Assembly (NCBI GenBank): GCA_026708505.1 | Contig: JAPOUU010000018.1 | Coordinates: forward strand, 1 to 64,000 | Direction: 5' to 3' | Length of the DNA: 64,000 nucleotides | DNA from: Hyphomicrobiales bacterium | GTDB taxonomy: Bacteria; Pseudomonadota; Alphaproteobacteria; JAPOUT01 | Part shown: positions 2,253 to 57,950 of the stretch, in pieces | Position numbering within the stretch: position 1 is the first letter of the stretch | Layout: each line of letters opens with the position of its first letter | The notes under the pieces: model-generated | What the model was told of the DNA's origin: nothing | Databases searched by the model: none | The model's input: the letters and a program-made list of their open reading frames with translations, nothing else | Program-made: the position numbers and the translations under genes

Positions 2253-3095
2253 ATGGCGCTGAAGAAATACAAACCAACGACACCGGGACAACGCGGGCTG
2301 GTTCTCATCTCCCGCGAGGATCTCTGGAAAGGCAAGCCGAAGAAGAGCCTCACCGAAGGACTTCCTTCGCGCGGCGGTCGTGACGGACAGGGACGCATCG
2401 CCGTTCGCAACCGCGGCGGCGGACACAAGCGTTCCTACCGCAAGATCGACTTCAAGCGCCGCAAGATGGATGTGACCGCGGTGGTCGAGCGTCTCGAGTA
2501 CGATCCCAACCGCACCGCCTTCATCGCGTTGATTCGCTACGAGGACGGCGAGTATGCCTACATCCTCGCGCCCCAGCGTTTGAAGGAAGGCGACAGCGTG
2601 GTCTCGTCGCGGGAGGCGGACATCCGCCCGGGCAACGCTATGCGGCTCGGCAACATGCCCGCGGGAACCATCGTCCACAACATCGAAATGAAGCCCGGCA
2701 AGGGCGGCCAGCTGGCGCGCTCGGCGGGGGCATACGCGCAGTTGATGGGACGCGACCAAAGCGGTTACGTCATCGCGCGGCTGTCGTCGGGAGAGCAGCG
2801 TCTGCTGCATGCCGAATGCATGGCGACGGTCGGGGCGGTGTCGAATCCGCTGTGGAACAATGTGAAATTCGGCAAGGCGGGCCGGCGCCGCTGGATGGGA
2901 AGACGTCCCAAGGTTCGCGGCGTTGCGATGAACCCGGTCGACCATCCCCACGGCGGCGGCGAAGGCAAGACGTCGGGCGGACGCCATCCGGTTTCGCCCG
3001 AAGGCAAGCCGACCAAGGGCAAGCGGACGCGCGCGAACAAGCGCACGGACAAATTCATCCTGCGGTCAAGACATCAACGGCGTAAGAGGAAGTAA
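2253..3095 (+). CDS. rplB: 50S ribosomal protein L2
   Basis: A 280-residue L2, the normal length, needed for subunit association and peptidyl-transferase activity. It starts [14 protein letters not shown] and carries the C-terminal [17 protein letters not shown] motif with the conserved functional histidine. It starts 4 bp after rplW and ends 4 bp before rpsS. Confidence 0.98.
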
Positions 3096-3099
3096 CAAG

Positions 3100-3381
3100 A
3101 TGACACGCTCAACATGGAAAGGACCTTTTGTGGACGGATACCTGCTCTCCAAGGCGGAAGCGGTTCACGAGAAAGGGCGCAAGGAAGTCATCAAGACCTG
3201 GTCGAGGCGCTCGACGGTCGTGCCGCAATTCGTCGGACTGACCTTCGGGGTTCACAACGGCCGCAAACACATCCCGGTCACCGTGAGCGAGGACATGATC
3301 GACCACAAACTCGGAGAGTTCGCCCCGACGCGGACCTACCACGGACACGCTCCCTCCGACAAGAAGGCGCAAAGGAAATAA
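3100..3381 (+). CDS. rpsS: 30S ribosomal protein S19
   Basis: A 93-residue S19, a 30S head protein that contacts S13 and the A-site finger. Recognised by [14 protein letters not shown] at the N-terminus and [18 protein letters not shown] in the middle. AGAGGAAG at 3086-3093 serves as ribosome binding site. Confidence 0.97.
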
Positions 3382-3383
3382 CA

Positions 3384-3797
3384 ATGGGCAAGCCTGCAAG
3401 AGAACGTGCATTAGCCGACAACGAAGCCTGCGCCAAGGGCGGCTTGCTGCGGGTCTCCCCGTTCAAGTTGAACCTTGTCGCGCAGATGATTCGCGGCAAG
3501 CCGGTCGAGACGGCGATGAACGATTTGGAATTCTGCCGCAAGCGCATCGCCGGACCGGTGCGCAAGCTGCTCAAGAGCGCCATCGACAACGCCGAGAACA
3601 ACCACCAGCTTGATGTGGATTCCCTGGTCGTCGCGCAGGCCCACGTCGGCAAGCATCTGGTGATGAAGCGCTCCCGCGCGCGTGCGCGCGGACGTTTCGC
3701 CCGCATCCTCAAGCCCTTCTCCCGCATGACCATCATCGTGCGCGAGGTTGATGAATCCGCCGAAAGCGAAACCGGAAAAACCGGGGAGGAGAATTAG
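3384..3797 (+). CDS. rplV: 50S ribosomal protein L22
   Basis: A 137-residue L22; its beta-hairpin reaches into the exit tunnel. The start is ATG 3384, two bases after the rpsS stop, giving [15 protein letters not shown]; longer readings of this frame run back into rpsS and are spurious. The hairpin region [20 protein letters not shown] is visible. The protein ends in a short acidic tail ([15 protein letters not shown]), a milder form of the tails on L3, S5 and L15. Confidence 0.97.
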
Positions 3798-4510: not shown

Positions 4511-4924
4511 ATGCTGCAACCAAAGAAGACCAAATACCGCAAGGCGCACAAGGGACGCATCCACGGCATGGCAAAAGGTGGAAGCGAGTTGAACTTCGGC
4601 GTTTACGGAATCAAGGCGCGTTCGCCCGACCGCATCACGTCGCGGCAGATTGAAGCGGCGCGGCGCGCGATCACGCGGCACATGAAACGTGCGGGCCGTG
4701 TCTGGATCCGGGTGTTCCCCGATATTCCCGTGTCGAAAAAACCGACCGAGGTTCGCATGGGCAAGGGGAAAGGCTCGCCGGAATATTGGGTTGCGCGCGT
4801 CAAGCCCGGCCGCGTGCTGTTCGAGATTGACGGGGTTCCGCCCTCGGTTGCATGGGAGGCGTTGCGCCTGGGCGCGGCGAAGCTTCCCGTTGCGTGCCGA
4901 CTAATCCGCCGGGTTGGCGAGTGA
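4511..4924 (+). CDS. rplP: 50S ribosomal protein L16
   Basis: A 137-residue L16, which sits near the A site and helps tRNA accommodation. It begins [16 protein letters not shown] and contains the conserved [20 protein letters not shown] segment. GAGGAATAAGAGAG upstream acts as ribosome binding site. Confidence 0.98.
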
Positions 4925-4943
4925 TTTGCCGGAGGTGCTTGCT

Positions 4944-5153
4944 ATGAAACCGACCGAAGTACGCGATAAGACGCCGGACGAGCTGGACGATTTGCTGGAG
5001 CGTTTGCGCCGCGAGCGTTTGAACCTGCGCTTCCAGCAGGCGACGGGACAGTTGGAGAATGTTGCGCGGATGCGTGCGCTTCGCCGCGACATCGCGCGCA
5101 TCGAGACGGTGCGCCGCGAGCGCAAACCTTCGAAAACGGGCAAGGAGCAATAA
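4944..5153 (+). CDS. rpmC: 50S ribosomal protein L29
   Basis: A 69-residue L29, a two-helix protein at the exit tunnel. The start at 4944 is chosen because GGAGG at 4931-4935 lies 8 bp ahead and the resulting N-terminus [14 protein letters not shown] fits the family; the frame is open upstream but overlaps rplP. The [14 protein letters not shown] motif is diagnostic. Confidence 0.96.
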
Positions 5154-5155
5154 AG

Positions 5156-5392
5156 ATGCCGAGAAGAATTTTGCAGGGCGTGGTGGTTTCCGACAAGCGC
5201 GACAAAACGATTGCCGTGCGCGTCGAGCGCCGGTTCAGCGACCCGGTGATGAAGAAGACGGTGCGCCGTTCGAAGCGCTATCACGCCCATGACGGCGAGA
5301 ACCGCTGCAAGGTCGGCGACGTGGTCCGGATACGCGAGTGTCCGCCGATATCGAAATCAAAGAGTTGGGAAGTCGTTCCCGCGGACGAATAG
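5156..5392 (+). CDS. rpsQ: 30S ribosomal protein S17
   Basis: A 78-residue S17, a primary 16S-binding OB-fold protein. Conserved parts are [20 protein letters not shown] and the C-terminal [17 protein letters not shown]. It starts 2 bp after rpmC. Confidence 0.97.
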
Positions 5393-5404
5393 GCGAGAGA
5401 AAAA

Positions 5405-5773
5405 ATGATACAAGTGGAAACCGTCCTTGATGTTGCCGATAATTCCGGAGCGCGCGCCGTCCAATGCATTAAAGTGCTGGGCGGATCGCGCCGGAAGTAT
5501 GCGCGCGTCGGCGACATAATCGTGGTCGCCGTCAAAGAGGCGATCCCGCGCGGACGCGTGCAGAAGGGAAGCGTGATGAAGGCCGTGGTCGTGCGCACGG
5601 CGAAGGAGATCCACCGCCAGGACGGATCCGCCATTCGCTTTGACCGCAACGCCGCCGTTCTGGTGAACGCGCAGGGCGACCCGATCGGCACGCGCATCTT
5701 CGGGCCCGTAACCCGCGAGTTGCGCGCGCGCAAGCACATGAAAATTATTTCGCTCGCACCGGAGGTGTTGTGA
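5405..5773 (+). CDS. rplN: 50S ribosomal protein L14
   Basis: A 122-residue L14 of exactly the usual length, part of the subunit interface. It begins [17 protein letters not shown] and contains DQ-type core motifs such as [13 protein letters not shown] near the end. First gene after the S10 block in the spc order. Confidence 0.98.
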
Positions 5774-6087
5774 TGGCGCTTCGAATTCGAAAAGGCGACA
5801 AGGTCGTCGTGCTCTCTGGCCGCGACAAGGGCAAGCGCGGCGAAGTTCTCGGCGTGTTTCCGCGCGAGGGCAGGGCGCTGGTCCAGGGCGTCAACATGGT
5901 CAAGCGCGCGAGCAAGGCGGACGCCCGCGGCGGCGGGGGCATCCAGGCCAAGGAGTCGAAAATCCACCTCTCCAACATCGCCCTGGAGGATCCCGGCGGC
6001 AAGGGAAGCACGCGTTTTGCCGTGCAGCTTGAGGACGGACGCAAGCGCCGGCAGGCAAAACGCTCAAAGGAGTATATCGATGTCTGA
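5773..6087 (+). CDS. rplX: 50S ribosomal protein L24
   Basis: A 104-residue L24, an assembly initiator protein with an N-terminal KOW motif ([19 protein letters not shown]). The start at ATG 5773 overlaps the rplN stop by one base (TGATG). The end overlaps rplE by 8 bp. Confidence 0.97.
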
Positions 6088-6646
6088 GACATACGTTCCC
6101 CGCATGAAGAAGCGCTACCTGGAGCAGGTTCACCCCGGCCTGAAGGAGAAGTTCGGCTTTCGCAACAATCTGCAGGTGCCGCGCCTCGAGAAGATCGTGC
6201 TGAACATGGGCGTGGGGGCCGCGGTGAGGGATTCGCGCAAGATCAAGGCCGCCGCCGAGCATCTCGCCCTGATTGCCGGACAAAAGCCGGTCGTCACCAA
6301 GGCGCGCCGTTCGGAGGCGAACTTCAAACTGCGCCAGGGCATGGCAATCGGCGTCAAGGCGACGCTGCGGCGCGACAGGATGTTCGAGTTTGTCGACAGG
6401 CTCGTCACCATCGCGCTGCCGCGCGTGCGCGACTTCCGCGGATTGAACCCGAACAGTTTCGACGGTAACGGCAATTTTGCCATGGGAATTAAAGAGCACA
6501 TCGTTTTCCCCGAGATCGACTATGACAAGATCGAGGACATTTGGGGACTGGATGTGATTGTTTGTACGACCGCGCGCAGCGACGAGGTTGCGCGCGAGTT
6601 GCTGCGCGGGCTGGACTTTCCCTTCCCGCAACCGGTGTCGCAATAA
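6080..6646 (+). CDS. rplE: 50S ribosomal protein L5
   Basis: A 188-residue L5, which binds 5S rRNA and contacts the P-site tRNA. ATG 6080 gives [16 protein letters not shown]; the longer open frame lies within rplX. Family motifs [30 protein letters not shown] and [16 protein letters not shown] are all present. A slightly longer N-terminus than in E. coli is usual for this group. Confidence 0.97.
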
Positions 6647-6659
6647 AGGAGGCGAGTTT

Positions 6660-6965
6660 ATGGCAAAGAAAGGTGATATCGAACGCAACCGCAACGTAAA
6701 AAAACTGGTTGCAAAATATGCGGGCAGACGCGCGCGGTTGAAGGCGATCTTGCGCGACGGCGAAAGATCGAACGAGGACAAGTTCCAGGCGCGCCTGAAG
6801 CTTGCACAGCTGCCGCGCAACTCTTCGCCGACGCGCGTGCGCAACCGCTGCGAGCTGTCCGGCCGCGCGCGCGGATATTACCGGAAGTTTCGTTTGTCGC
6901 GGATATGGCTGCGCGAGATGGCGTTGCGCGGACACATTCCCGGCATGGTTAAATCAAGCTGGTAG
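6660..6965 (+). CDS. rpsN: 30S ribosomal protein S14
   Basis: A 101-residue S14 of the long, zinc-free type: no paired CxxC motifs are visible. A strong AAAGGAGG ribosome binding site lies just upstream at 6646-6653. The C-terminus ends in the conserved [18 protein letters not shown]. Confidence 0.97.
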
Positions 6966-6977
6966 GAAGTTAGAAAG

Positions 6978-7376
6978 ATGAGTTTTTCAGACCCGTTGGG
7001 AGACATGCTGACCCGGATTCGAAACGCGCAAATGCGCCGCAAGGAAGTCGTGCGCGTGCGCGCGTCCTCGCTGTGCACGCGGGTGCTCGATACGCTCAAG
7101 GAGCAGGGCTTCATCCGGGGCTATCGCAAGGAGGCGTTGCGCCCGGGCATCAACGTTCTCGATGTGGAGTTGAAGTACCACGACGGCGAGCCGGTGATTC
7201 GCTCCCTCCGGCGCGTTTCCCGGCCGGGACGGCGCGCCTATGCCGCCGCCAAGGAGATTCCGCTGGTCTACAACGGCCTGGGGATTTCGATATTGTCGAC
7301 CTCGCGCGGCGTGATGTCGGATGCCCAGGCGCGCGCCTGCAACGAGGGCGGCGAGATTTTGTGCGCGGTGTTTTGA
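6978..7376 (+). CDS. rpsH: 30S ribosomal protein S8
   Basis: A 132-residue S8, the primary binder of the 16S central domain. It begins MSFSDPLGDMLTRIRNAQ and contains the conserved GLGISILSTSRGVMSDAQA segment. In other bacteria S8 represses the spc operon by binding mRNA around rplE; no such site was checked here. Confidence 0.97.
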   Translation: MSFSDPLGDMLTRIRNAQMRRKEVVRVRASSLCTRVLDTLKEQGFIRGYRKEALRPGINVLDVELKYHDGEPVIRSLRRVSRPGRRAYAAAKEIPLVYNGLGISILSTSRGVMSDAQARACNEGGEILCAVF

Positions 7377-7386
7377 GGTAACGGAT

Positions 7387-7920
7387 ATGTCGCGAATTGG
7401 AAAAAAACCCGTATCCATCCCCGAGGGCGTTGAAGTTCGCGTCAACGGCAAGGTGGTCGAGGCGAAGGGCAAGAACGGTTCGGGAAGCCTGGAGTTGCTG
7501 GACAGCGTGACGCTCGAGCAGGGCGAGGGCGAGTTGCGCCTGACGCCCAAGGACGAGTCCATGCGCTCGCGTTCCATGTGGGGAATGCAGCGCACGCTTT
7601 TGGATAATCTGCTTGTGGGGGTCTCGAGCGGGTTTTCCAAGACGCTGCTGTTGAACGGGGTGGGATACCGCGCCGAAATGCGCGGCAAGGATTTGCGCAT
7701 GCAACTGGGCTTCAGTCATGATATTCTGTATCCGGTGCCCGAGGACATCGAGATAAAATGCCCGCGCCCGGTGGAAATTGTCGTTTCCGGACGCGACCGC
7801 CAGCGCGTCGGGCAGGTTGCGGCGAACCTGCGCGCCTACCGCCCGCCGGAGCCGTACAAGGGCAAGGGCGTTCGCTATTCCGACGAGGTGGTTATGCGCA
7901 AGGAAGGTAAAAAGAAATGA
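7387..7920 (+). CDS. rplF: 50S ribosomal protein L6
   Basis: A 177-residue L6, which sits near the factor-binding site. ATG 7387 gives [15 protein letters not shown], the family start. The C-terminal signature [20 protein letters not shown] is complete. The stop overlaps the rplR start by 4 bp (ATGA). Confidence 0.98.
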
Positions 7921-8288
7921 TCGATCGTTCCGAAACCGTTACACAGCGTGCGGCGCGGGTTCGCACGAAACTGCGCCGGGGCAACCGGGACGGGCGTCCG
8001 CGCCTGTCGGTGTTCCGTTCGTCGAAGTACATTTACGCGCAGATTATCGACGATGCGCACGGACGCACGCTGCATTCGGCATCATCGCTGGAGTCCGCGT
8101 TCCGCGAGCAGGGCGGCAAGGCTTCCTCCTGCGACAAGGAAGCCGCGCGCAAAGTCGGCGAGATGGTGGCGCGCCGCGCCATTGAAGGCGGCGTCAAAAA
8201 GGTCGTGTTCGACAGGGGCGGTTATGCGTTTCACGGACGGGTGCTCGCGCTCGCGCAGGGTGCGCGCGAAGCCGGCCTGGAGTTTTAG
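7917..8288 (+). CDS. rplR: 50S ribosomal protein L18
   Basis: A 123-residue L18, a 5S rRNA-binding protein. Motifs [20 protein letters not shown] and the C-terminal [20 protein letters not shown] fit the family. The arginine-rich N-terminus ([16 protein letters not shown]) is the rRNA-binding part. Confidence 0.97.
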
Positions 8289-8302
8289 GAGAAGATAGCG
8301 AA

Positions 8303-8965
8303 ATGGCACGAAGAGAACGGCCCGCCAAGGGCGAGAAAGGTGAACGCGAACCGAGCGAGTTGATCGACAAGCTCACGCACATCAACAGGGTTTCGAAAGT
8401 CGTGAAGGGCGGTCGCCGCTTCGGCTTTGCGGCGCTGGTCGTCGCGGGCGACAAGCGCGGACGCGTGGGCTTCGGCCACGGCAAGGCGCGCGAGGTTCCC
8501 GAGGCGATACGCAAGGCGACCGAGGAGGCGAAAAAGAATCTGATATCGGTGCCCTTATACGAAGGACGCACGCTGCACCATGACGTATCCGGACGCTGGG
8601 GAGCCGGGCGCGTGATCCTGCGCGCGGCGCCTCCGGGCACGGGGATTATCGCGGGCGGGCCGGCGCGCGCCGTTTTCGAGACTTTGGGAATGCAGGACGT
8701 CGTTGCCAAGTCGATAGGCTCGTCAAATCCGTACAACGTCGTGCGCGCGACATTCTCGGCGCTGCGCAAGGAATGCTCGCCGCGCATGGTTGCGGCGCGC
8801 CGCGGCAAGAAGCCGAGCGAAATCATCACGCGTGCGCACAGACGCCCGACGGGCGAAAGCGCCGCGGAGAAAGACGCGGCGAAGAAAGACGCCGCGCCCG
8901 TAAAAGAGTCGAAAGAGCCGAAAGAGGCAAAAGAAGAAACACCGAAAGAGACGCAGGAATCATGA
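8303..8965 (+). CDS. rpsE: 30S ribosomal protein S5 with Lys/Glu-rich C-terminal tail
   Basis: A 220-residue S5, a fidelity protein at the mRNA entry channel. The double-stranded RNA-binding-like N-terminal half ([20 protein letters not shown]) and the [20 protein letters not shown] stretch are diagnostic. E. coli S5 has 167 residues. Here roughly the last 40 are a low-complexity run with [20 protein letters not shown] at its end, the same style as the tails on L3 and L15. The stop overlaps the rpmD start (ATGA). Confidence 0.96.
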
Positions 8966-15796: not shown

Positions 15797-16818
15797 GCGC
15801 GGACACGCAAGCGGACAACGCGAAAAAAATCGGCGGCGATTATCATGTCGTCGTTGCGGACGAATCGGGTTTGCGACTGGATCGCTGGTTTCGGGCGCGT
15901 TATCCGGGGTTGGGACACGCCCGCTTGTCGAAATTATTGCGGCAGGGGCAGATACGCCTGGATGGAGCGCGCGTCCCCGGCAGCGCGCGCTTGGAGACCG
16001 GGCAGAAAATTCGCGTGCCGCCCCTGCCCTCAAGCGCGATAACACCGAGAGTAGCGCCGCAAGAAGTCAGCGCGGCGGACGCGGCGTTTGTGGAAGGCTT
16101 GCTTTTGCATCGAGATGAATCCGTTTTGGTTTTGAACAAGCCGTCGGGTTTGGCTGTTCAGGGCGGAAGCGGCTTGCACCGGCATCTGGACGGAATGCTG
16201 GGAGGCCTGCGTTTCGGGCGCGAAGATTCACCGCGCCTGACCCACCGTCTCGATCGCGATGTCTCCGGCGTGCTGGTCCTGGGGCGTAGTTCAAGGGCCG
16301 CGGCGCATTTGTGCGAATCTTTTCGCGAGCGCCGCGTCGGAAAACTGTACCGGGCGTTGACGCTGGGCGTTCCGACGCACCCGAAGGGCCGCATTGAAAC
16401 TTCGATGGAGAAAGCATCGAACGACGGCATGGAAAAAATGACTCTCGGCAAGGGCAAGAAGGCATGCACGGATTATGCCGTGGTGGAAGCGGTCGGAACG
16501 CGTTTTGCATGGATAGGGTTTGTTCCGCAAAGCGGCCGCACGCACCAATTGCGGGTTCATGCGGCGGCGTTGGGATGTCCGATTTTAGGAGACGGGAAAT
16601 ACGGCGGGCGCGAGGCGCGCATGGCCGGGGAGGAGACGGGGCTGGCCTCGGGATTGCATCTTCATGCGACGCGGTTGCGTTTGCCGCACCCCGACGGCGG
16701 CATACTGGATGTCGTTGCGCCTCCGCCCCCGCACATGGAGGAGAGTTGGCGCACGCTGGGATTGGATTGGCGCACGGGCGGGGAGATCGAGGATTCTGTT
16801 TGGCGTTCTTTGGTCTAA
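15793..16818 (+). CDS. RluC/RluD-family ribosomal large subunit pseudouridine synthase
   Basis: A 341-residue enzyme that isomerises uridines in 23S rRNA. An S4-like RNA-binding domain covers about residues 26-75 (LRLDRWFRARYPG), followed by the catalytic domain. The catalytic motif HRLDRDVSGVLVLGRS places the essential aspartate at residue 154; SGRTHQLRVHAAALG is the second signature. The start overlaps the crcB stop (ATGA). The end overlaps the convergent ATPase gene by 4 bp. RluC is more likely than RluD from context, but I cannot separate them with certainty. Confidence 0.88.
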   Translation: MSADTQADNAKKIGGDYHVVVADESGLRLDRWFRARYPGLGHARLSKLLRQGQIRLDGARVPGSARLETGQKIRVPPLPSSAITPRVAPQEVSAADAAFVEGLLLHRDESVLVLNKPSGLAVQGGSGLHRHLDGMLGGLRFGREDSPRLTHRLDRDVSGVLVLGRSSRAAAHLCESFRERRVGKLYRALTLGVPTHPKGRIETSMEKASNDGMEKMTLGKGKKACTDYAVVEAVGTRFAWIGFVPQSGRTHQLRVHAAALGCPILGDGKYGGREARMAGEETGLASGLHLHATRLRLPHPDGGILDVVAPPPPHMEESWRTLGLDWRTGGEIEDSVWRSLV

Positions 16819-17993
16819 CCGGTTCTTTCCCTTAAAGTTTCAATAAAGCGCGAAAGCGACAGAACGGTCGTTTTATTATCGCCCCGAAATTCATCTTCCC
16901 CGGCGTAAACGACAAATTTCCTTTGCACTTTTAGGTCCTCGCAGGCTATATGAAACCCTTTTTTAAGCGTAGGCGTGCGATTGGATTTAATTTCAACCGC
17001 CCAATAGTTATCCAATCCAAACTCAAGAAGCAAATCAATTTCAGCTCCGGCAGAAGTTCTGTAAAAATAGGGATGAACCCCAAACGGCAATACCGAGATG
17101 ATATTTTCGATTACAAACCCTTCCCAGCTTTTATCTCGAATTGAATGGCCCAGTAATTCCTCATAATTGGGTATTTGCAGAAGTGTGTGGAGGATGCCAC
17201 TGTCTCTAATATAGATTCTTGGAGATTTAGTAAGTTGTTTTTTTATGTTTCCATGCCAAGGCTCAAGCCTGCGAACCAATAACAAATCAACCATTAAGTC
17301 CAGATACCGGCTAACCGTGACGCTTTTTACGCTTAACGGGCTTGCTATTTTTGAAGCGTTGAATAATTCACTTTGCGTGTGCGCAAGCATTGTCCAAAAA
17401 CGCATGAGTGTTGCGGCGGGAATGCGTGAACCTAATTCTGGGATATCGTGTTCCAAATAAGTGCGGATAAAGTTTTTCCTCCATTTATGGCTTTTTTGAT
17501 CGCTTTGCGCCGCATAACTGTCAGGGAATCCGCCGCGCATCCACAATCTTTGCAACGGTTCGCCTTCCGGCTCTTCTATTTCGAACGGATTGAGGCTTGT
17601 CAGCTCGTGATAACAAATGCGCCCTGCAAGACTTTCAGAGCTTTGCTTTAGTAGTTTATTTGATGCGGAGCCGAGAATAAGGAACCGGCCATTGCCGCGC
17701 CCTTCGCGCCGCCTGGCATCAATGATGCCGCGCAACGACATAAACAGATCGGGATAGTTTTGGACTTCATCAAGAATTACCAATTCATCAGCATGGCGGT
17801 CCAAATAATGAGTGCTGTCCTCCAACCTTCGTAAATTTTCCGATTTTTCAAGGTCAAGGTAGTTTGACGGTCGGGTCTTAGCAATTTCAAGGGCAAGCGT
17901 CGTCTTGCCGACTTGGCGTGGCCCAAGAATGGCTACCGCCGGATTTTCGTTTAGGTCTCGGGCAATCTCTTGTGCTAATTCCCTTTTATACAT
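16815..17993 (-). CDS. AAA+ ATPase with C-terminal DUF4143 (PD-(D/E)XK-like) domain
   Basis: A 392-residue protein of the AAA_14/DUF4143 family. Walker A GPRQVGKTT is at residues 24-32 and Walker B LVILDEVQ at 71-78. The C-terminal domain carries AEIDLLLEF followed by WAVEIKSN, that is D-x(n)-E-x-K, the pattern of a PD-(D/E)XK nuclease fold. The family is widespread and mobile; its biochemical role is not settled. GC content is clearly below that of the flanking core genes, and the gene faces against the rarA-RluC operon, overlapping it by 4 bp, both signs of transfer. No good ribosome binding site precedes ATG 17993. Four 23-bp tandem repeats begin 20 bp upstream and may be its operator. Confidence 0.88.
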   Translation of the reverse strand: MYKRELAQEIARDLNENPAVAILGPRQVGKTTLALEIAKTRPSNYLDLEKSENLRRLEDSTHYLDRHADELVILDEVQNYPDLFMSLRGIIDARRREGRGNGRFLILGSASNKLLKQSSESLAGRICYHELTSLNPFEIEEPEGEPLQRLWMRGGFPDSYAAQSDQKSHKWRKNFIRTYLEHDIPELGSRIPAATLMRFWTMLAHTQSELFNASKIASPLSVKSVTVSRYLDLMVDLLLVRRLEPWHGNIKKQLTKSPRIYIRDSGILHTLLQIPNYEELLGHSIRDKSWEGFVIENIISVLPFGVHPYFYRTSAGAEIDLLLEFGLDNYWAVEIKSNRTPTLKKGFHIACEDLKVQRKFVVYAGEDEFRGDNKTTVLSLSRFIETLRERTG

Positions 17994-22605: not shown

Positions 22606-23077
22606 GGTTTTTCTCCTGTTGGTTTTTATTGGTTCTTCTTTTGATGTGCGCCTTTTTTTTGGAGGCAATTCAAATTCAATAATACAACAAGTTGATTTGG
22701 AGTTGTGAATTTACCGCAGACAATCCGAATCAATGCGGGGTTTTCACTGCAAGTTGAATGAAAAGCATCCTGCCGGGCGCGAAAATTACCGGCATTGTTT
22801 TTTTATTTCTCCCTGTCCTTCCACATAATAATTTGCGATTGCGAACTTGCCCGTATTGCCGAATCCCGCCTGATTCGGGTTAATTCCGCTTTTTCCCCTC
22901 GGTTTCCGCCGGTTTTCTAATTTCTAATCGAAAACAGGGAATCGGGTCGTTGCGGCTTCACGCCGAATTTTATTTGATTAATGGCGGAATTGGGGCGAAT
23001 CGCATACAATTTCGCTTAATTGCACAAGGGAGCAGTTATTTCCCTTTTGTTGTCCCGGTATCAGAGGAGTTTGTTTG
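22606..23077. other. Divergent intergenic region between proX and pccB
   Basis: About 470 bp with no gene-like frame. It should contain the promoters of both the proX operon (leftward) and the pccB operon (rightward). It is AT-rich with several T-runs. GAGGAG at 23064-23069 is the pccB ribosome binding site. I see no clear operator. Confidence 0.6.
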
Positions 23078-24613
23078 ATGAGTAAGCATGTAATGGAGGC
23101 TTTTGAGGAGCGTGCGTCCCGGGCACGTTTGGGCGGAGGTGTTGAGCGTGTCAAGGCGCAGCATGAAAAAGGGAAGTTGAGCGCGCGCGAGCGCATCGAA
23201 CTTTTACTCGATGAGGGAAGTTTCGAAGAGTTCGATATGTTCGTCCAGCATGATTGTCACGATTTTGGCATGGGGGAGAAGCACATTCCCGGCGATGGCG
23301 TTGTGACCGGACATGGTCGTGTGGACGGCCGGCGTGTGTTCGTGTTTGCGAAAGACTTTACGGTTTTCGGGGGATCGCTGTCCCGGACGCATGCGGGCAA
23401 GATTGCGAAGATTCAGGATTTAGCGATGCGTGTAGGCGCGCCGATTGTCGGCTTGTTTGATGCGGGAGGCGCGCGCATTCAGGAGGGGGTTGATGCTTTG
23501 GGAGGTTATGGCGAAGTGTTTCTGCGCAATGTTCTGGCCTCCGGCGTTGTTCCGCAAATTTCCTGCATTATGGGACCGTGCGCGGGCGGGGATGTTTACT
23601 CCCCCGCGATGACGGATTTTATTTTCATGGTGCGGAACAGTTCTTATATGTTCGTGACCGGTCCCGATGTCGTTCGCGCCGTGACCAATGAAGAGGTAAG
23701 CGCGGCGCAATTAGGCGGCGGCGAGATACATACAATGCGCTCGGGCGTTGCGGACGGATTGTTCGCCCATGATGTTGAAGCGATGTCGCAGTTGCGGAGG
23801 TTGTTGTCGTTTTTACCTTCGAGCAACAGGGAGTCGCCGCCGCGCCGTAAGAGTCTCGATCCGGTCAAGCGGACCGAGCCTTCCCTGGAGACTTTGGTTC
23901 CGGACAATCCGAACGTTCCTTATGATGTGAAAGAACTGATATTAAAGATTGTGGACGAGGGGGATTTCTTTGAGTTGCAGGAAGATTATGCGCGCAACAT
24001 CGTCATAGGGTTTGCGCGGATGGACGGGATGCCGGTCGGAGTCGTAGCCAATCAGCCGCTGGTTTTGGCGGGAGTGCTGGATTGCGATGCGTCGCGGAAA
24101 GCCGCCCGTTTTGTCCGTTTTTGCAATGCGTTTTCGATTCCGCTGGTAACGCTGGTGGATGTTCCCGGATTTTTACCGGGCACGTCGCAGGAGTATTCCG
24201 GTTTGATAAAGCACGGAGCGAAACTGTTGTTTGCGTATTCGGAAGTCACGGTTCCGAAGGTTACATTGATTGTTCGCAAAGCGTACGGAGGCGCTTACGT
24301 CGTGATGTCGTCGAAACATATCCGCGGCGATGTGAATTATGCATGGCCGAGCGCGCAGATAGCGGTGATGGGAGCGGCGGGGGCCGTTGAAGTGCTGCAT
24401 CGTCGAGAGCGTGATGATGCCGAAGCGATGGGCAAACACGTCACCGAATATGAAAACCGTTTTTTGAATCCGTTTGTCGCCGCGGAACGCGGTTACATTG
24501 ATGATGTAATTACTCCGGGCGAGACGCGCACGCGGATTTGCGCGGCGCTAAACATGCTAAGCGACAAGCGCTTGGAGAATCCGTCGAAACGGAACGGTAA
24601 TATTCCTCTTTAA
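23078..24613 (+). CDS. pccB: Propionyl-CoA carboxylase beta (carboxyltransferase) subunit
   Basis: A 511-residue acyl-CoA carboxyltransferase that moves CO2 from carboxybiotin to propionyl-CoA, giving methylmalonyl-CoA. ATG 23078 is preferred to the TTG three bases upstream; GAGGAG lies 8 bp ahead. Both crotonase-like halves are intact: GLFDAGGARIQEGVDALGGY and CAGGDVYSPAMTDF in the first, LVDVPGFLPGTSQEYSGLI and RKAYGGAYVVMSSK in the second. These fit the PccB family better than acetyl-CoA carboxylase AccD. Its partner pccA lies 1.75 kb downstream, after two inserted genes. Confidence 0.95.
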   Translation: MSKHVMEAFEERASRARLGGGVERVKAQHEKGKLSARERIELLLDEGSFEEFDMFVQHDCHDFGMGEKHIPGDGVVTGHGRVDGRRVFVFAKDFTVFGGSLSRTHAGKIAKIQDLAMRVGAPIVGLFDAGGARIQEGVDALGGYGEVFLRNVLASGVVPQISCIMGPCAGGDVYSPAMTDFIFMVRNSSYMFVTGPDVVRAVTNEEVSAAQLGGGEIHTMRSGVADGLFAHDVEAMSQLRRLLSFLPSSNRESPPRRKSLDPVKRTEPSLETLVPDNPNVPYDVKELILKIVDEGDFFELQEDYARNIVIGFARMDGMPVGVVANQPLVLAGVLDCDASRKAARFVRFCNAFSIPLVTLVDVPGFLPGTSQEYSGLIKHGAKLLFAYSEVTVPKVTLIVRKAYGGAYVVMSSKHIRGDVNYAWPSAQIAVMGAAGAVEVLHRRERDDAEAMGKHVTEYENRFLNPFVAAERGYIDDVITPGETRTRICAALNMLSDKRLENPSKRNGNIPL

Positions 24614-24634: not shown

Positions 24635-25378
24635 ATGTCCAACTTTCCCGAACACTATCCGGCCTTGTTCGGGGGCGGTGCGGGCTTTGAGATTGAAGAT
24701 TTGCGCAGGGAGTATATCTCTTTGCGCGAGAACGCGCCGTCCCGAACTTTGCGCGGGAAAAGATATTTTGTCGGACATGACGGCATTCCCTCGTCCCGCG
24801 GTTATACCAATCGCCGCGAGGAACACAGCGCGATTGCGCTTGTGAATCTTCAACAGGATTGGGAGCATCCGCTCGGAGGAAGTTTTCGGTTTTTGGACTA
24901 TCAAGTCCCCCTGAAAGCGCGGCAGTCGGATGGCGGTATCGGTAAAATCGATATTGTCGGCGTTAACAGCAAAGGAAGATTGATTCTCGTCGAGCTTAAA
25001 GTTGAAAGCAAACATAGCGGTCGCGGGGATTCGCCTTTCTCGGCGCTGTTGCAGGGATTGCGCTATGCCGCCATTGTTGAGGCGAATCTGAAGGCGATTG
25101 CGGCTGAGGCGAGAGGTTTTGGCGTTGAAATTCGGGAGACGGCGCCTGTCGTGCAACTCTTGGCGACGGAAGCGTGGTGGCTGCAGCAGGGATTCAATTT
25201 TTCGGCTGCCGGAAATTCGCAGAAGTATTTTGCCGATTTCATAGACGACATTGAAAGGGAAATAGGCATTACTTTTGAATTCCTTGCCTTCGATCATTTG
25301 AATGTCGTTTTTGGCTTGGACGGGGAGAAGCCCCGGCTTGATCCGATTCCCTCTTTGCGTGCCGTGCCGTTGCGATGA
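24635..25378 (+). CDS. Unrecognised protein with a PD-(D/E)XK nuclease motif (first of a coupled pair)
   Basis: A 247-residue soluble protein with no family I can name. The nuclease pattern is good: acidic pair E62-E63 in an N-terminal helix, D106 in GKIDIVGV, E120 and K122 in LILVELKVES, then Q140-x3-Y144 in LLQGLRYAAIV, which matches the QxxxY motif of RecB-type nucleases. It starts 21 bp after pccB and overlaps the next gene by 4 bp (ATGA), so the two are translated together. It may be a DNA-cleaving defence or repair protein; that is inference from the motif. GC content is a little lower than in the carboxylase genes. Confidence 0.7.
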   Translation: MSNFPEHYPALFGGGAGFEIEDLRREYISLRENAPSRTLRGKRYFVGHDGIPSSRGYTNRREEHSAIALVNLQQDWEHPLGGSFRFLDYQVPLKARQSDGGIGKIDIVGVNSKGRLILVELKVESKHSGRGDSPFSALLQGLRYAAIVEANLKAIAAEARGFGVEIRETAPVVQLLATEAWWLQQGFNFSAAGNSQKYFADFIDDIEREIGITFEFLAFDHLNVVFGLDGEKPRLDPIPSLRAVPLR

Positions 25379-26346
25379 TTTACAAAGACGAGGTTCGCGC
25401 GAACTTGTGGTCCTGGGCGGATGCCAACCACCGGGGACAACTCGACGGCGGTAATCGGGAAAGGCGTCCTCCCGTGCTGGAAAAAGGTTTCGAGGCGGAG
25501 AATGTTCTGGTTTCTCCGGACGGATTCCGCAGCGAAGAGGTTCGTGCGGCCATTCCCGTTCGCGAACGCCATCGCTGGTTTCGCAGTTTGTTTAGTTCCC
25601 AGGCGTTGGCGCAGAGTGTTTTTGGAAACATTCGTGCGTACGGCCGTTTAGATCTTCTTCGGGGTGTTCCGGCGGAATGCGGGCGCGAAGCTTTTTTCCG
25701 GGATAGCGAGGATTGGAGTCTCGATCTCGAGCATAGAATAGGAAGTCTGAACGAACCGCGCCCCACCACCGTTGATGTGTTGTTGCAGAGCTCCGGCAGA
25801 CGCATTGCAGTGGAATGTAAATTCACGGAGGATGAATTTGGCACTTGTTCGCGCACGAGGCTGCCCAAGCAGGACGCACACCATTGCAACGGCAATTATG
25901 AAGTTCAACAAGGACGTCTCGAGCGGTGCGCCTTGAGCGAACAGGGTATTTCATATTGGCGCCATCTTCCGCAATTGTTTGACTGGCCGGCGGACAGGAA
26001 TCATGCGCCTTGTCCGTTTGCGGACGTTTATCAACTGGCGCGCAACGCCCTTGCCGCAACGCTTTCACCTGCGGGTGAGTTCGATTCGGAAAGCGGACAC
26101 ATGCTGCTCGTGTATGACGACCGCAATCCGGAGTTCCACCCGGATGGCCGCGGCAGCAGACAGTGGCGGATGGCTTTGGAGGCATGCCGAGTGGATGGCT
26201 TGCTTCGACGTATAAGCTGGCAGAGGTTGCTCGGATCCCTTTCCGGTGCGGGAGAGTTGCAATGGCTTTTGGACGCTTTGGAGCGCAAGTATGGGCTACT
26301 CTCGGAATTGCCGCCTAAATCCAATATCGACTCTTTGCTAAAATAG
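25375..26346 (+). CDS. PD-(D/E)XK nuclease-like protein, PGN_0703-type (second of a coupled pair)
   Basis: A 323-residue protein resembling PGN_0703-like putative restriction endonucleases. The core is D134 in TTVDVLLQ and E147-C-K149 in RIAVECKFTEDEFG. It is followed by a cysteine-spaced stretch (C148, C158, C171, C185) around CNGNYEVQQGRLERCALSEQ, which might hold a metal or simply be family-conserved. Start overlaps the previous gene; the end is 17 bp before pccA. Nothing predicts a methyltransferase partner nearby, so a classic restriction-modification system is not supported. Function unknown. Confidence 0.7.
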   Translation: MIYKDEVRANLWSWADANHRGQLDGGNRERRPPVLEKGFEAENVLVSPDGFRSEEVRAAIPVRERHRWFRSLFSSQALAQSVFGNIRAYGRLDLLRGVPAECGREAFFRDSEDWSLDLEHRIGSLNEPRPTTVDVLLQSSGRRIAVECKFTEDEFGTCSRTRLPKQDAHHCNGNYEVQQGRLERCALSEQGISYWRHLPQLFDWPADRNHAPCPFADVYQLARNALAATLSPAGEFDSESGHMLLVYDDRNPEFHPDGRGSRQWRMALEACRVDGLLRRISWQRLLGSLSGAGELQWLLDALERKYGLLSELPPKSNIDSLLK

Positions 26347-26363: not shown

Positions 26364-28331
26364 ATGTTTTCGAAGCTTTTGATAGCGAATCGCGGTGAAA
26401 TAGCGTGCCGAATTATTTCAACCGCACGTCGCATGGGTATTGCGACCGTTGCGGTCTATTCCGATGTTGACGAGCGTACTCCGCATGTCCGCCTTGCCGA
26501 CGAGGCCGTTGCCATCGGCCCTGCTCCGGCGAGTGAATCTTATCTGGTTGCGGAGAAGATTTTGGATGCGGCGCGGAAAACCGGAGCGGATGCGCTCCAT
26601 CCGGGTTACGGCTTCTTGTCCGAAAACACCAACTTCGCACGTGCGGTCGAACAAGCCGGCATTGCCTTTGTGGGACCTTCTCCCGAGGCGATTGCGGCAA
26701 TGGGTGACAAGATCGAGTCCCGCGAATATGCCCAGCGTGCAGGAGTAAACGTCATTCCGGGCGTTGCGGTCGCAACGGTCGCGGATGCGGCTGCGGCGGC
26801 GCGCGAGATTGATTATCCGGTGATGATTAAGGCGGCCGCGGGCGGCGGCGGAAAGGGAATGCGCGTAGTGCAGGAAGAAAGCGCGCTTGAGAGAAATTTT
26901 GAAGCTTGCGTTAGCGAAGCGGAATCGAGTTTCGGTGACGGGCGCGTTTTGCTTGAGCGCTACATCACGGCTCCGCGGCATATAGAAATCCAACTGCTTG
27001 CCGACAAGCACGACAACATTCTCCATCTCGGCGAGCGGGAATGTTCAATACAGCGGCGCAATCAAAAGATTATCGAAGAGGCTCCTTCTCCGTTTGTTAC
27101 GGACAAGATGCGCGCACAGATGGCCAAGCAGGCTGTTGCGCTGGCACGCGCGGTCGGTTACCACTCGGCCGGGACGGTTGAATTCGTTGCGGACGACAAG
27201 CGCAACTTTCATTTTCTGGAGATGAACACGCGCTTGCAGGTTGAGCATCCGGTGAGCGAGTTGATTACGGGGCTGGATTTGGTGGAGTGGATGTTGCGCG
27301 TTGCGGCGGGAGAGAAAATTCCGTTTACGCAGAAAGAGATTCATTTTAACGGCTGGGCGGTGGAGTCGCGCATTTATGCGGAAGATCCCCACCGTGACTT
27401 TATGCCTTCGCCCGGACGCCTGAGCCGCTACCGCCCGCCGGGCAGGAAAGGCTTCGGCGTCAAGGATGCCCGTATTCGCAATGATACGGGCGTCGAGGAA
27501 GGCGGCCGCATCTCGCCGCATTATGATCCGATGATCGCGAAGCTTTGCACATGGGCGCCGACGCGCGATGATGCGATTGCGTGCATGTCCGAAGCGCTCG
27601 ACCGCTTCGAGATTGACGGCATTGCGCATAACATTCCACTGCTGGGAGCGTTGATGGAGCATGAACGTTTTCGAAGCGGAAAGCTGACAACGCATTTTCT
27701 TGAGGAAGAATACCCCGACGGCTTCGGAGGTGTTGTGCCGGATGCAGCCCGGACCCTCCGTCTCGCCGTGATTGCCCTGTATATGGAGCATGTGGATTGC
27801 AACCGTGACAACAGAGACGCAGAACTTTCGCGCCATGTGGAGACGGAAACGCTAAGCGGTTTGGGAAGCTGCCGCGGCAATGTTGTTTCTTTTGCGGGCG
27901 AGGAGATAGAGGTGGAGAGCGACTGGCATCCGGGTCTGGTGACCTTTGAGGGGAAATTGAACGGCGTGACGATGGCGGTGAGTGTTGTGCGCGAGAAGGA
28001 AGGTTATGCGTTGTCCTATCGGGGCACGCATGTGCGGGTGTTATTGCGTTCGGAGCGGGCGGCGGAATTGCTTGCTTCGATTCCGAACGCTTTGAGCGGT
28101 TCGGGCGAGGGGGACGGATCGCGGCACTTGCTTTGTCCGATGCCGGGCGTTGTGGTTTCGGTGGGCGTTTCGGAAGGGGACGAGGTCCGTGCGGGCGACG
28201 TGTTGGCGGTGGTTGAAGCAATGAAGATGCAGAACGTTCTGCAAGCCGAGAATCCGGGCAAGGTTGCCCGTGTGCTGTGTTCGACGGGACAGCAACTAGC
28301 GGTCGGGGATGTGATGATCGAGTTCGAGTAA
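26364..28331 (+). CDS. pccA: Propionyl-CoA carboxylase alpha (biotin carboxylase/BCCP) subunit
   Basis: A 655-residue biotin-dependent carboxylase alpha chain. The ATP-grasp biotin carboxylase domain begins MFSKLLIANRGEIACRII and includes AAAGGGGKGMRVVQ and FLEMNTRLQVEHPVSELITG. A middle BT-type linker domain follows, then the biotinyl domain with the acceptor lysine at residue 621 in VEAMKMQN. The overall length fits PccA rather than the shorter AccC. It ends 7 bp from the convergent lipB. Confidence 0.95.
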   Translation: MFSKLLIANRGEIACRIISTARRMGIATVAVYSDVDERTPHVRLADEAVAIGPAPASESYLVAEKILDAARKTGADALHPGYGFLSENTNFARAVEQAGIAFVGPSPEAIAAMGDKIESREYAQRAGVNVIPGVAVATVADAAAAAREIDYPVMIKAAAGGGGKGMRVVQEESALERNFEACVSEAESSFGDGRVLLERYITAPRHIEIQLLADKHDNILHLGERECSIQRRNQKIIEEAPSPFVTDKMRAQMAKQAVALARAVGYHSAGTVEFVADDKRNFHFLEMNTRLQVEHPVSELITGLDLVEWMLRVAAGEKIPFTQKEIHFNGWAVESRIYAEDPHRDFMPSPGRLSRYRPPGRKGFGVKDARIRNDTGVEEGGRISPHYDPMIAKLCTWAPTRDDAIACMSEALDRFEIDGIAHNIPLLGALMEHERFRSGKLTTHFLEEEYPDGFGGVVPDAARTLRLAVIALYMEHVDCNRDNRDAELSRHVETETLSGLGSCRGNVVSFAGEEIEVESDWHPGLVTFEGKLNGVTMAVSVVREKEGYALSYRGTHVRVLLRSERAAELLASIPNALSGSGEGDGSRHLLCPMPGVVVSVGVSEGDEVRAGDVLAVVEAMKMQNVLQAENPGKVARVLCSTGQQLAVGDVMIEFE

Positions 28332-33140: not shown

Positions 33141-33482
33141 AAAATGAAACCATTCGAAGTCACAATTCCGATTCCCGCCCGCCATGCCCTGCGAAAGTTT
33201 GGCGCGGACATTCGGAATGCGCGCAGACGCCGGCGCATTTCAACGGCGGTGATGGCCGAGCGGGCTTCCATCAGCCGTATGACTCTCAACAAAGTCGAAA
33301 AAGGCGACCCAAATGTTGCTCTTGGCATTTATGCCAAAGTGTTGTTTGTGCTCGGCGCGACCGACCGTCTCGCGGAGCTCGCAGATGCCAAGCATGACAG
33401 CGTTGGGCTGAGCCTGGAAGATGAGATTCTGCCAAAACGCATCAGAATACCCGGCGCCAAAAAACCAAGAGGAACCGGGTAA
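33132..33482 (+). CDS. HipB-like antitoxin (XRE helix-turn-helix)
   Basis: A 116-residue DNA-binding protein just upstream of and overlapping the hipA-like gene by one base (TAATGG). An XRE/Cro HTH covers about residues 23-75 (IRNARRRRRISTAVMAERAS then LNKVEKGDPNVALG), followed by a basic tail that could contact HipA. Start 33132 or 33144, both in frame. Role: neutralise the HipA kinase and repress the operon through the inverted repeat. Confidence 0.85.
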   Translation: MDIKMKPFEVTIPIPARHALRKFGADIRNARRRRRISTAVMAERASISRMTLNKVEKGDPNVALGIYAKVLFVLGATDRLAELADAKHDSVGLSLEDEILPKRIRIPGAKKPRGTG

Positions 33483-34747
33483 TGGACAGAGAGGTTTTTG
33501 TTTATATTGATTTGGTGGGCGTATCCGTTCTTGTTGGGCGGTTGTGGTCGCGTGTGCGCAACGGACGTGAAAGCGCATCTTTTGAGTATGATCGAACCTG
33601 GTTGGAAAATCCGCAACGCTTCGCCCTGGAACCCGCCCTCACGCTTACGCCGGGCACGTTTCATGCATCGTCGGAAAGAAAATTATTTGGTGCGTTTGGT
33701 GACTCCGCGCCCGACCGTTGGGGTCGCGAAATCATGTCTCGCAACGAGAGTCAGTGCGCGAGGCACAAAGGAGAAACTCCGCGTACGCTCTTCGAGTCTG
33801 ATTTCCTTCTCCTTGTTGATGACGAGGCTCGTCAGGGCGCTCTTCGGTTCAAGATCGATCCGGAAGGGGCATTCCTAACAACCGGGGGGCAACCACGTAT
33901 TCCGCCATTGGTGGACCTGCAACGCTTGCTCTCGGCGACCGAACGACTCGAAGAGGATAGAGAAAGTGATGAAGATGTGCGGTTGCTGATTGCGCCTGGT
34001 TCTTCTCTTGGCGGCGCGCGTCCGAAGGCTTGCGTACGGGATAACGATGGTCATCTGGCGCTGGCCAAATTCCCGAGCCGAAAAGACAGTTTCAATGTCG
34101 TTCTATGGGAGGGTGTTGCCCTGTCTCTTGCCAAAAAAGCCGGCATTGATGTTCCTGATTGGAGCATCGAGAAGGTTGGCGGAAATCCCGTCCTTCTCAT
34201 TCGCCGCTTTGACAGGGTAAAGAGTGAGCGCCTCCCGTTTCTCTCCGCTATGAGCATGCTAGGTGCAAGCGACCGTGAAACTCGTTCTTACATGGAAATC
34301 GCCGATGCACTTAAGCAATACGGCGCAGAAACCAAGACGGACTTGATTCATCTCTGGCGCCGCATTGTGTTTAACGTTCTCGTGTCCAACACGGACGATC
34401 ATTTGCGCAATCACGGGTTCCTCTACGCGGGTCATAAAGGATGGCGGCTTTCGCCGGCCTATGACTTAAACCCCACGCCCCAAAATGTCCGTCCACGCTT
34501 TCTTTCCACAACCATCGGTTTGGACGATCCCGCAACTTCCATTGATCATGCCTTGGAAACGGCTGAATACTACGGATTAAAACCGGCGCGCGCGAAGAGT
34601 ATTATCTTGGAAGTTGCTTGCGCCGTGTCCGACTGGCAGAAGGAAGCCGCCCGTTTGGGCATTGCTGCGCGTGATATCAAGCGCATGGAATCCGCTTTTG
34701 TCCACGAGGATTTAGAGAAGGCTTTGCGTCTGACTCCCGGAGAGTAG
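33482..34747 (+). CDS. HipA-like serine/threonine kinase toxin
   Basis: A 421-residue HipA-family kinase. The N-terminal Couple_hipA-like subdomain has LFGAFGDSAPDRWGREIM. The regulatory Ser loop/P-loop is GSSLGGARPKA (173-183), the ATP lysine K196 is in LALAKF, the catalytic loop is NTDDHLRNHGF with Asp306, and the metal-binding SPAYDLNP has Asp328. All catalytic residues are present, so it is probably active. Classic HipA phosphorylates glutamyl-tRNA synthetase; targets differ between subtypes and cannot be told here. The module is on the strand opposite to the flanking folP and glmM. Confidence 0.9.
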   Translation: MDREVFVYIDLVGVSVLVGRLWSRVRNGRESASFEYDRTWLENPQRFALEPALTLTPGTFHASSERKLFGAFGDSAPDRWGREIMSRNESQCARHKGETPRTLFESDFLLLVDDEARQGALRFKIDPEGAFLTTGGQPRIPPLVDLQRLLSATERLEEDRESDEDVRLLIAPGSSLGGARPKACVRDNDGHLALAKFPSRKDSFNVVLWEGVALSLAKKAGIDVPDWSIEKVGGNPVLLIRRFDRVKSERLPFLSAMSMLGASDRETRSYMEIADALKQYGAETKTDLIHLWRRIVFNVLVSNTDDHLRNHGFLYAGHKGWRLSPAYDLNPTPQNVRPRFLSTTIGLDDPATSIDHALETAEYYGLKPARAKSIILEVACAVSDWQKEAARLGIAARDIKRMESAFVHEDLEKALRLTPGE

Positions 34748-57288: not shown

Positions 57289-57950
57289 GCGTACGCGCCC
57301 GCCGACGGTTCACAAAAAATGACGGCGGGTTGTACCTTCTCACGCCGCCGCGTGTTTGCTTGCAAACGTTTCCCGACGCCTTGTCCCGGGCGTTGGAGGC
57401 GGGAGGCGTTTCGTGCCTGCAGATTCGCCTGAAATTCTCCCAAGATGAATCCCGGGATTCCGGGCGCGTTTGGCGTGAATGCGTCGGGGTTCTTGCGCCC
57501 CTGGCCCGGCGCTACGGCGTTTCGGTTTTGCTGAACGACGATGCGCGTCTTGCCGGCGCGTTGGGAGCGGACGGCGTTCATATCGGGCAGCAGGACGACG
57601 GCATGGATGCAGCGCGTGCATCGGTGGGCGAGGGCATTGTCGGCGTGACCTGCCATGACTCCCCGGAGCTGGCGCACGCGGCACAGGCTTCGGGGGCGGA
57701 TTATGTTGCGTTTGGATCTTTTTTTGCGTCCCGCAACAAACCGGACGCGGTGCGCGCGCCTCTCGGGATTTTGTCGCACTGGCGCGAGAAGGGAAACATT
57801 CCCTGCGTTGCGATAGGGGGAATCACGGCGGGGAATGCGGCGGATTTGCTGCGTGCGGGCGCAGACTACCTAGCGGTGTGCGAGGGCGTATGGGGACACG
57901 CGGACGGGCCCGCGGCGGCGGTTGAAGAATTCGCGGTGCTGTTCGGTTAG
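57285..57950 (+). CDS. thiE: Thiamine phosphate synthase
   Basis: A 221-residue TIM-barrel enzyme joining HMP-PP and thiazole phosphate. YLLTPPRV at the N-terminus, VLLNDDARLAGALGADGVHI, GQQDDGMDAAR, GVTCHDSPELAHAA, DYVAFGSFF and VAIGGITAGNA match the family, with QIRLK as a slight variant of the usual QLRxK. ATG 57285 overlaps the fba stop. Its end overlaps the convergent autotransporter gene by 4 bp. Confidence 0.92.
   Translation: MSVRARRRFTKNDGGLYLLTPPRVCLQTFPDALSRALEAGGVSCLQIRLKFSQDESRDSGRVWRECVGVLAPLARRYGVSVLLNDDARLAGALGADGVHIGQQDDGMDAARASVGEGIVGVTCHDSPELAHAAQASGADYVAFGSFFASRNKPDAVRAPLGILSHWREKGNIPCVAIGGITAGNAADLLRAGADYLAVCEGVWGHADGPAAAVEEFAVLFG

Follow-up and report, generated by a model that had tools for sequence, protein, structure and literature searches.

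Organization of the locus

The window analysed here, a stretch of 64,000 nucleotides from a Hyphomicrobiales bacterium, contains two short genes, designated A and B, which lie between pccB and pccA of the propionyl-CoA carboxylase operon. The features of the locus are listed below, the coordinates of codons having been calculated by arithmetic.

23075-24613, + strand: pccB, upstream flank (Pfam Carboxyl_trans, 2e-194)
24635-25378, + strand: gene A, taken from the list of open reading frames, 247 amino acids, probable PD-(D/E)XK protein of an unnamed family
24950-25000, + strand: codons D106 to K122 of A, unchanged in all 6 sequences of the alignment (D106, 24950-24952; E120, 24992-24994; K122, 24998-25000)
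25375-25378, + strand: ATGA, 4 nucleotides shared by the stop codon of A and the start codon of B
25375-26346, + strand: gene B, 323 amino acids, REase-ARP family (PF22558; Pfam E-value 1.6e-28)
25729-25821, + strand: codons E119 to K149 of B, invariant in 13 of 13 REase-ARP proteins and covering three strands of the model (D134, 25774-25776; E147, 25813-25815; K149, 25819-25821)
25846-26013, + strand: cysteine stretch of B (C158, C171, C185, C213), a clade-specific insert located between the third strand and the helix that follows it
26364-28331, + strand: pccA, downstream flank (Pfam biotin carboxylase domains, PCC_BT and biotin_lipoyl)

The distance is 21 bp from pccB to A and 17 bp from B to pccA, and the GC content is 53% for A and 56% for B, against 58% for the window. 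The list of open reading frames, the junction sequence and the Pfam assignment of both flanks thus bear out the original prediction of two open reading frames between pccB and pccA with an ATGA overlap and short gaps. The motifs that it had read in the two proteins, D106/E120/K122 with Q140xxxY144 in A and D134/E147/K149 with the cysteines in B, were also found at the positions claimed. In this genus A and B are probably co-transcribed with pccB and pccA.

No methyltransferase gene was found among the 10 window genes submitted to a Pfam scan, and none was recognised by eye beside the pair at the loci L010 (genome G001), L011 and L057. The list of open reading frames of the window revealed no recognisable integrase or transposase gene adjoining A-B, and no defence gene was recognised directly beside the pair. 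Further away, the window contains a HipA-like kinase-type toxin gene (33482-34747, + strand, HipA_C 5.7e-50), an AAA_14 and DUF4143 ATPase gene (16815-17993, - strand), to which a gene of G001 is similar by eye (L010, 10137-11321), and an open reading frame of 1009 amino acids (57947-60976, - strand) that by eye looks autotransporter-like, with repeats and a C-terminal barrel.

Gene B encodes a REase-ARP protein

B belongs to the REase-ARP family, as it scored 100.5 bits against PF22558, for which the curated cut-off is 27. When B was aligned with 12 other REase-ARP proteins, S75, E119, T131, D134, E147, K149, Q220 and R223 were invariant in all 13 sequences, and the acidic/lysine active site of the family (E119, D134, E147 and K149) is present in B. 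Cysteines occupy the positions of C158, C171, C185 and C213 in 10, 9, 9 and 10 of the 13 sequences, respectively.

The structural model of B, built from 9 sequences (mean pLDDT 68.0), consists of a helix, three strands, a helix and a strand, and its three successive strands carry E119, D134 and E147/K149. Its confidence is low in the cysteine insert, which in the clade of B could be a metal site or a redox switch. The top VIA-align row for this model was the small subunit of R.BspD6I (Z 6.6, rmsd 3.9, 125 aligned residues), and the further rows, which included Can2 (Z 6.4), EndoMS (6.2) and BstEII (6.2), were mostly restriction-type nucleases. No VIA-align row reached Z 8, Foldseek gave no match below 0.001, and the sequence search of solved structures with B returned no row. 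PADLOC-DB 2.0.0 contained no confident match to B (best E-value 0.012). A nuclease fold is nevertheless well supported for B by its family, its conserved residues and the restriction-type model, in agreement with the original prediction of a nuclease fold for both proteins. For A the same prediction can be upheld only as probable.

Gene A encodes a probable PD-(D/E)XK protein

Searches of Pfam, NCBIfam and PHROGs with A identified no family above cut-off. Weak matches covered the motif region, namely PDC-S11 (5e-4, the best match to A in PADLOC-DB 2.0.0, which held no confident one) and Cas4 (0.002) in PADLOC and NucS (0.007) in NCBIfam. The score against the NucS model NF003270 was 15.4 bits for a cut-off of 216, so that A falls outside this model. 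An alignment of A with five relatives, with identities down to 25%, showed D88-Y89-Q90, D106, E120, K122 and Y144 to be kept in 6 of 6 sequences, while position 140 is a Q in four and an E in two. The complete PD-(D/E)XK motif (D, E-x-K, Q/E-xxx-Y) is thus present in all six.

With 3 sequences as input, A gave a poor model (pLDDT 54.3), in which the order of the elements fits a PD-(D/E)XK core. Its best structural match, PaqCI (Z 5.3, rmsd 3.7, 117 aligned residues), was tied with acetyl-CoA carboxylase chains and is noise-like. The structure searches identified no family for A, and a sequence search of solved structures returned one meaningless row. Because the fold model is poor, the assignment of A as a probable PD-(D/E)XK protein is based on the motif, the order of the elements and the gene context.

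A bare D...ExK pattern occurred in 173 of 2000 shuffled sequences of A and in 140 of 2000 of B (7-9%), as well as in 4 of the 22 other window genes. Since it is so common in shuffles, the bare pattern was rejected as a criterion for a nuclease; the motifs of A and B rise above chance because their residues are conserved among homologues. Comparison with the genome of the same genus (G001) gave dN/dS values of 0.11 for A and 0.15 for B, versus 0.03 for pccB and 0.07 for pccA. Judged from these sequences, A and B both appear to be under purifying selection, and within the genus the two proteins change faster than those of pccA and pccB.

The pair is rare and is kept outside the pcc operon

The genome carrying the window (G000) was compared with relatives including G001, from the same genus, G002 and G003, from the same order, and G646, from another order. 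Among 59 chosen relatives, its own genome included, A was found in three (G000, G001 and G003), and the same three hold B; G002 has neither gene. A sample of 385 genomes of the class yielded strong matches to A in four genomes, at five places, with G646 as the new addition. All four clear A loci with unbroken frames (G000, G001, G003 and G646) adjoin a REase-ARP gene, a count that leaves aside the second, degraded A of G003, a remote relative found in G563 and a fragment in G181.

G001, the second species of the genus, has the order pccB-A-B, and the contig ends inside B. On the contig bearing its pccA, about 50 bp upstream of that gene, the sequence is unrelated to B (L093, 3479-4383; L010, 1-30). 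The junction between B and pccA is broken in G001, by rearrangement or by an assembly fault. G003, which belongs to another family of the order, carries the pair between divergent tsaD and hemC genes (named by eye), with A 63% and B 67% identical to the window pair and with the same ATGA overlap. At the conserved start of its A there is no ATG, GTG or TTG. The second A copy of G003 is degraded, contains a stop codon and has no B beside it.

The A relative of G646 is 50% identical to A and is followed, after a gap of 3 nucleotides, by a divergent REase-ARP gene, in a third setting. The product of this gene scored 25.4 bits, slightly below the cut-off of 27, and its 53% identical relative in G098 scored 39.1; PADLOC gave no match to the G646 pair at 0.1. 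The relative in G563 shares 39% identity with A over 80 amino acids, with no B recognised by eye, and the G181 fragment has broken frames and lies at a contig end. In the taxonomic neighbourhood of G646 and G098, at the level of orders and classes (11 and 48 genomes), no A was found beyond this fragment. A match in G522 (7e-5) was rejected as an A relative, as by eye it sits inside a DNA polymerase IV-like open reading frame.

No A was detected in viral contigs, phages or plasmids, the plasmids having been searched with the G646 relative as well. B was found neither in phages nor, as a single protein, in viral contigs; used as an alignment, it detected one relative, on the viral contig L027. 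The B-type protein of G646 matched one weak phage record and three plasmid records.

The neighbourhood survey therefore supports the suggestion that A and B form a coupled pair that stays together outside pcc operons, the settings being the pccB side in the genus, tsaD/hemC in G003 and the third one in G646. Because the relatives carry A and B as a pair, they probably constitute a small two-part nuclease system.

Insertion into the pcc operon

The pccA gene was found in 17 of 26 genomes, and 10 loci besides the window were compared, with distances calculated by arithmetic. At five of these, pccB and pccA are adjacent, separated by 11 (G003), 11 (G002), 9 (G021), 53 (G004) and 77 nucleotides (G019). 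They are 2.5-2.7 kb apart in G025 and G010, with nothing A- or B-like in between; pccB falls outside the stretch compared in G007 and G018, and the G001 locus is interrupted. Because only 9-11 nucleotides separate pccB from pccA in G003, G002 and G021, A-B is an insertion, and its link to the carboxylase is incidental, as the pair lies elsewhere in G003 and G646. The operon had also been predicted to serve as a safe site. This idea finds no support, since the three settings of the pair have no recognised gene in common.

At synonymous sites, all four genes (A, B, pccB, pccA) differ equally between G000 and G001 (0.39-0.41), suggesting a cassette older than the split of the two species. Relative to G003, they amount to 0.63 for A and 0.68 for B, versus 0.84 for pccB and 0.77 for pccA, all values being near saturation; the lower figures for A and B point to transfer of the pair from lineage to lineage.

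Other neighbours of REase-ARP genes

Relatives of B were present on 40 plasmid records of Rhizobium, Sinorhizobium and Ensifer. In all five of these records that were inspected, a DUF2726-type gene immediately precedes a REase-ARP gene of the B clade, and as the five are close relatives they count as one case. DUF2726 is described as a DNase with a REase fold in the accessible part of PMC3710099, and no kinship was found between it and A (hhalign E-value 0.45). Clade-2 REase-ARP genes occur in 8 of the 385 genomes, and no A-like neighbour was recognised in the open reading frame lists of the seven besides G646. In G098, an unassigned reading frame of 327 amino acids with a D...ExK stretch (L025, 4817-6612) ends 2 nucleotides before a clade-2 REase-ARP gene, and this frame showed no kinship with A either (hhalign E-value 0.011, probability 4%). 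G344 has a PDDEXK_4 gene two genes downstream of its REase-ARP gene, with overlaps of 4 nucleotides. Given the rhizobial, G098 and G344 cases, the pairing of REase-ARP with a nuclease-type gene apparently came about on more than one occasion, though no nuclease-type neighbour was recognised for many of the clade-2 genes.

Other neighbours were also noted. At L103, a clade-2 REase-ARP gene (2867-3616) is preceded, at a distance of 100 bp, by an Endonuclease_1 gene (1.1e-23, 2020-2766), and at L009 a protein of 1010 amino acids with a RelA_SpoT domain (8e-17, 4720-7752) is encoded just upstream of REase-ARP (7842-8792). By eye, the viral contig L027 carries an XRE-type gene, an ImmA/IrrE protease-like gene and then REase-ARP (6849-7802, 7896-8837).

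In a sample of 398 genomes of the phylum, REase-ARP genes were present in seven, including the genome of the window, leaving six other loci. Their neighbours comprise a type III methylase and a Res-like gene in G344, DUF499/HmaC in G268, a CBASS-type phospholipase and cyclase with Cas3e in G218, and Septu PtuA/PtuB with a PifA-like gene in G105; the PADLOC matches in G418 and G098 are weaker. We compared 17 proteins from the six loci, chosen after the loci had been viewed, with 20 proteins from six control windows of the same genomes, four of which were on the same contigs and some of whose GC-rich reading frames are probably spurious. In this small sample, PADLOC matches below 1e-60 occurred at 4 of 6 REase-ARP loci and in 0 of 6 control windows. 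The numbers were 5 of 6 against 1 of 6 below 1e-20, the control match being a response-regulator-like protein that matches RtcR models, and 6 of 6 against 3 of 6 below 1e-6.

According to the accessible text of PMC9503650, a rapidly evolving REase of ARG/rhodanese-phosphatase operons occurs in predicted antiviral neighbourhoods, and such REases are proposed to be second-line effectors acting on viral or host nucleic acid. Judging from the names and the wording, PF22558 would be the REase domain of that work. Our literature search found neither REase-ARP nor PF22558 in use as names, and no description of a two-nuclease pair of the A-B type. The window locus itself does not belong to the ARG/rhodanese-phosphatase operons, as no ARG, phosphatase or chaperone gene was found by Pfam among its 10 genes. 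In G000 and in G001, a single ADP-ribosylglycohydrolase gene, with a reading frame of roughly 630 codons, lies on a contig other than that of the pair (L110, L111), and an ARG gene is absent from G003 and G646, i.e. from two of the four pair-bearing genomes. The neighbours of the B family at four of the six loci, taken together with what PMC9503650 proposes in its accessible part, suggest that A-B may act in defence.

Proposed function of the pair

We tentatively propose, with a confidence somewhat short of even, that A and B are a mobile, two-subunit, restriction-like nuclease without a methylase of its own and with a probable role in defence. The two proteins would together make up a small mobile nuclease module, to which each subunit contributes one PD-(D/E)XK active site. 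Through the ATGA overlap they may be made in step and then assemble into a heteromeric DNase, in which each site would cut one strand. The target could be foreign or specially marked DNA, such as that of a phage or plasmid, or the DNA of the host itself after infection. Having entered the pcc operon of this genus between its two genes, the cassette is probably co-transcribed with pccB and pccA.

This proposal is favoured by the intact catalytic residues and the restriction-type model of B, the residues of A kept in all six sequences, the pairing at four of four loci, the patchy presence, the insertion, the synonymous differences to G003 and the strong PADLOC matches at four of the six other REase-ARP loci. 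The poor model of A, the structure rows of B below Z 8, the lack of a recognised defence gene beside A-B, the PADLOC matches in 3 of 6 control windows at the lax cut-off, the frequent occurrence of REase-ARP without an A-like neighbour, and in G003 the absence of a standard start codon at the conserved start of A and the degraded A copy without B all speak against it. That the pair represents an undescribed anti-phage system, in which A and REase-ARP act without a methyltransferase, as a self-contained overlapping cassette that spreads and is able to enter core operons, with cysteines in the B clade that could be metal- or redox-active, is conceivable, and we regard it as doubtful.

Controllers often come first in operons, and A is the first gene of the pair. 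B might be the only enzyme that cuts, with A, as a protein of nuclease fold, sensing DNA or restraining B in the manner of abortive infection or toxin-antitoxin systems. The REase-ARP genes found without A indicate that B-type proteins can act alone, and the second-line effector role proposed for such REases in the accessible part of PMC9503650 would fit. However, the catalytic residues of A are kept as strictly as those of B, whereas a pure controller could dispense with them, and we consider such a division of labour rather unlikely.

Purifying selection, the low-scoring matches between A and NucS (0.007) or Cas4 (0.002) and the presence of EndoMS among the structure rows of B (Z 6.2) would also be compatible with a housekeeping pair of NucS- or Cas4-like DNA repair or processing nucleases that came to lie in the operon by chance. 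Such a pair would hardly be absent from 56 of 59 relatives, G002 among them, or change its location, and its proteins evolve faster than those of pccA and pccB in the genus and have left a degraded copy in G003; a housekeeping function is thus improbable.

A somewhat lower probability still is given to the pair being left over from, or carried along by, a mobile element, with nucleases serving the element and not the host. The different insertion sites in three lineages and the B relatives on 40 rhizobial plasmid records and one viral contig would be expected of it, but no integrase or transposase was recognised beside A-B in the list of open reading frames of the window, and A was unmatched in plasmids, phages and viral contigs. 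Finally, the position inside the operon, and beside pccB in G001, might suggest a function tied to propionyl-CoA carboxylase; we rejected this as highly improbable, as in G003 and G646 the pair is found away from pcc and pccB-pccA occurs without it in G002, G003, G021, G004 and G019.

Comparison with known systems

The proposed module can be compared with the two-subunit enzymes BbvCI, R.BspD6I, BtsI and LlaJI, which belong to restriction-modification systems. A-B consists of two coupled genes with conserved motifs, whose products may form a similar pair of subunits, and the small subunit of R.BspD6I is the top structure row of B (Z 6.6). The accessible parts of PMC6326814 and PMC6261011 describe BbvCI and BspD6I, respectively, as enzymes with one catalytic site in each of two subunits. 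In contrast to the BbvCI-type enzymes, A and B are mutually unlike and have no methyltransferase gene seen beside them; the companion methyltransferase of type IIT-like systems was lacking at the A-B loci viewed.

NucS/EndoMS and Cas4 are brought to mind by the weak profile matches of A around its motif and by EndoMS among the structure rows of B, but A stays far below the NucS cut-off (15.4 bits against 216), with the rest of the domain unmatched. The rhizobial DUF2726 and REase-ARP genes likewise include a nuclease-type gene directly upstream and a REase-ARP of B's own clade. They differ from A-B in that DUF2726 has no similarity to A and that the genes are separated by 90-123 bp, with no overlap.

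B itself belongs to the REase-ARP family on the strength of its profile score and its catalytic residues. In ARG operons REase-ARP would have an ARG gene and phosphatase or chaperone genes as partners, whereas B is paired with A and none of these was recognised beside it. By our reading of the accessible part of PMC9503650, the family was proposed to be an antiviral effector of ADP-ribose systems on the basis of gene context. Here, a REase-ARP protein without ADP-ribose partners forms one half of a compact nuclease pair, which is small enough for direct testing, and a defence-type cassette placed within a central metabolic operon, at a distance from recognised defence genes, is one that searches for defence islands would miss.
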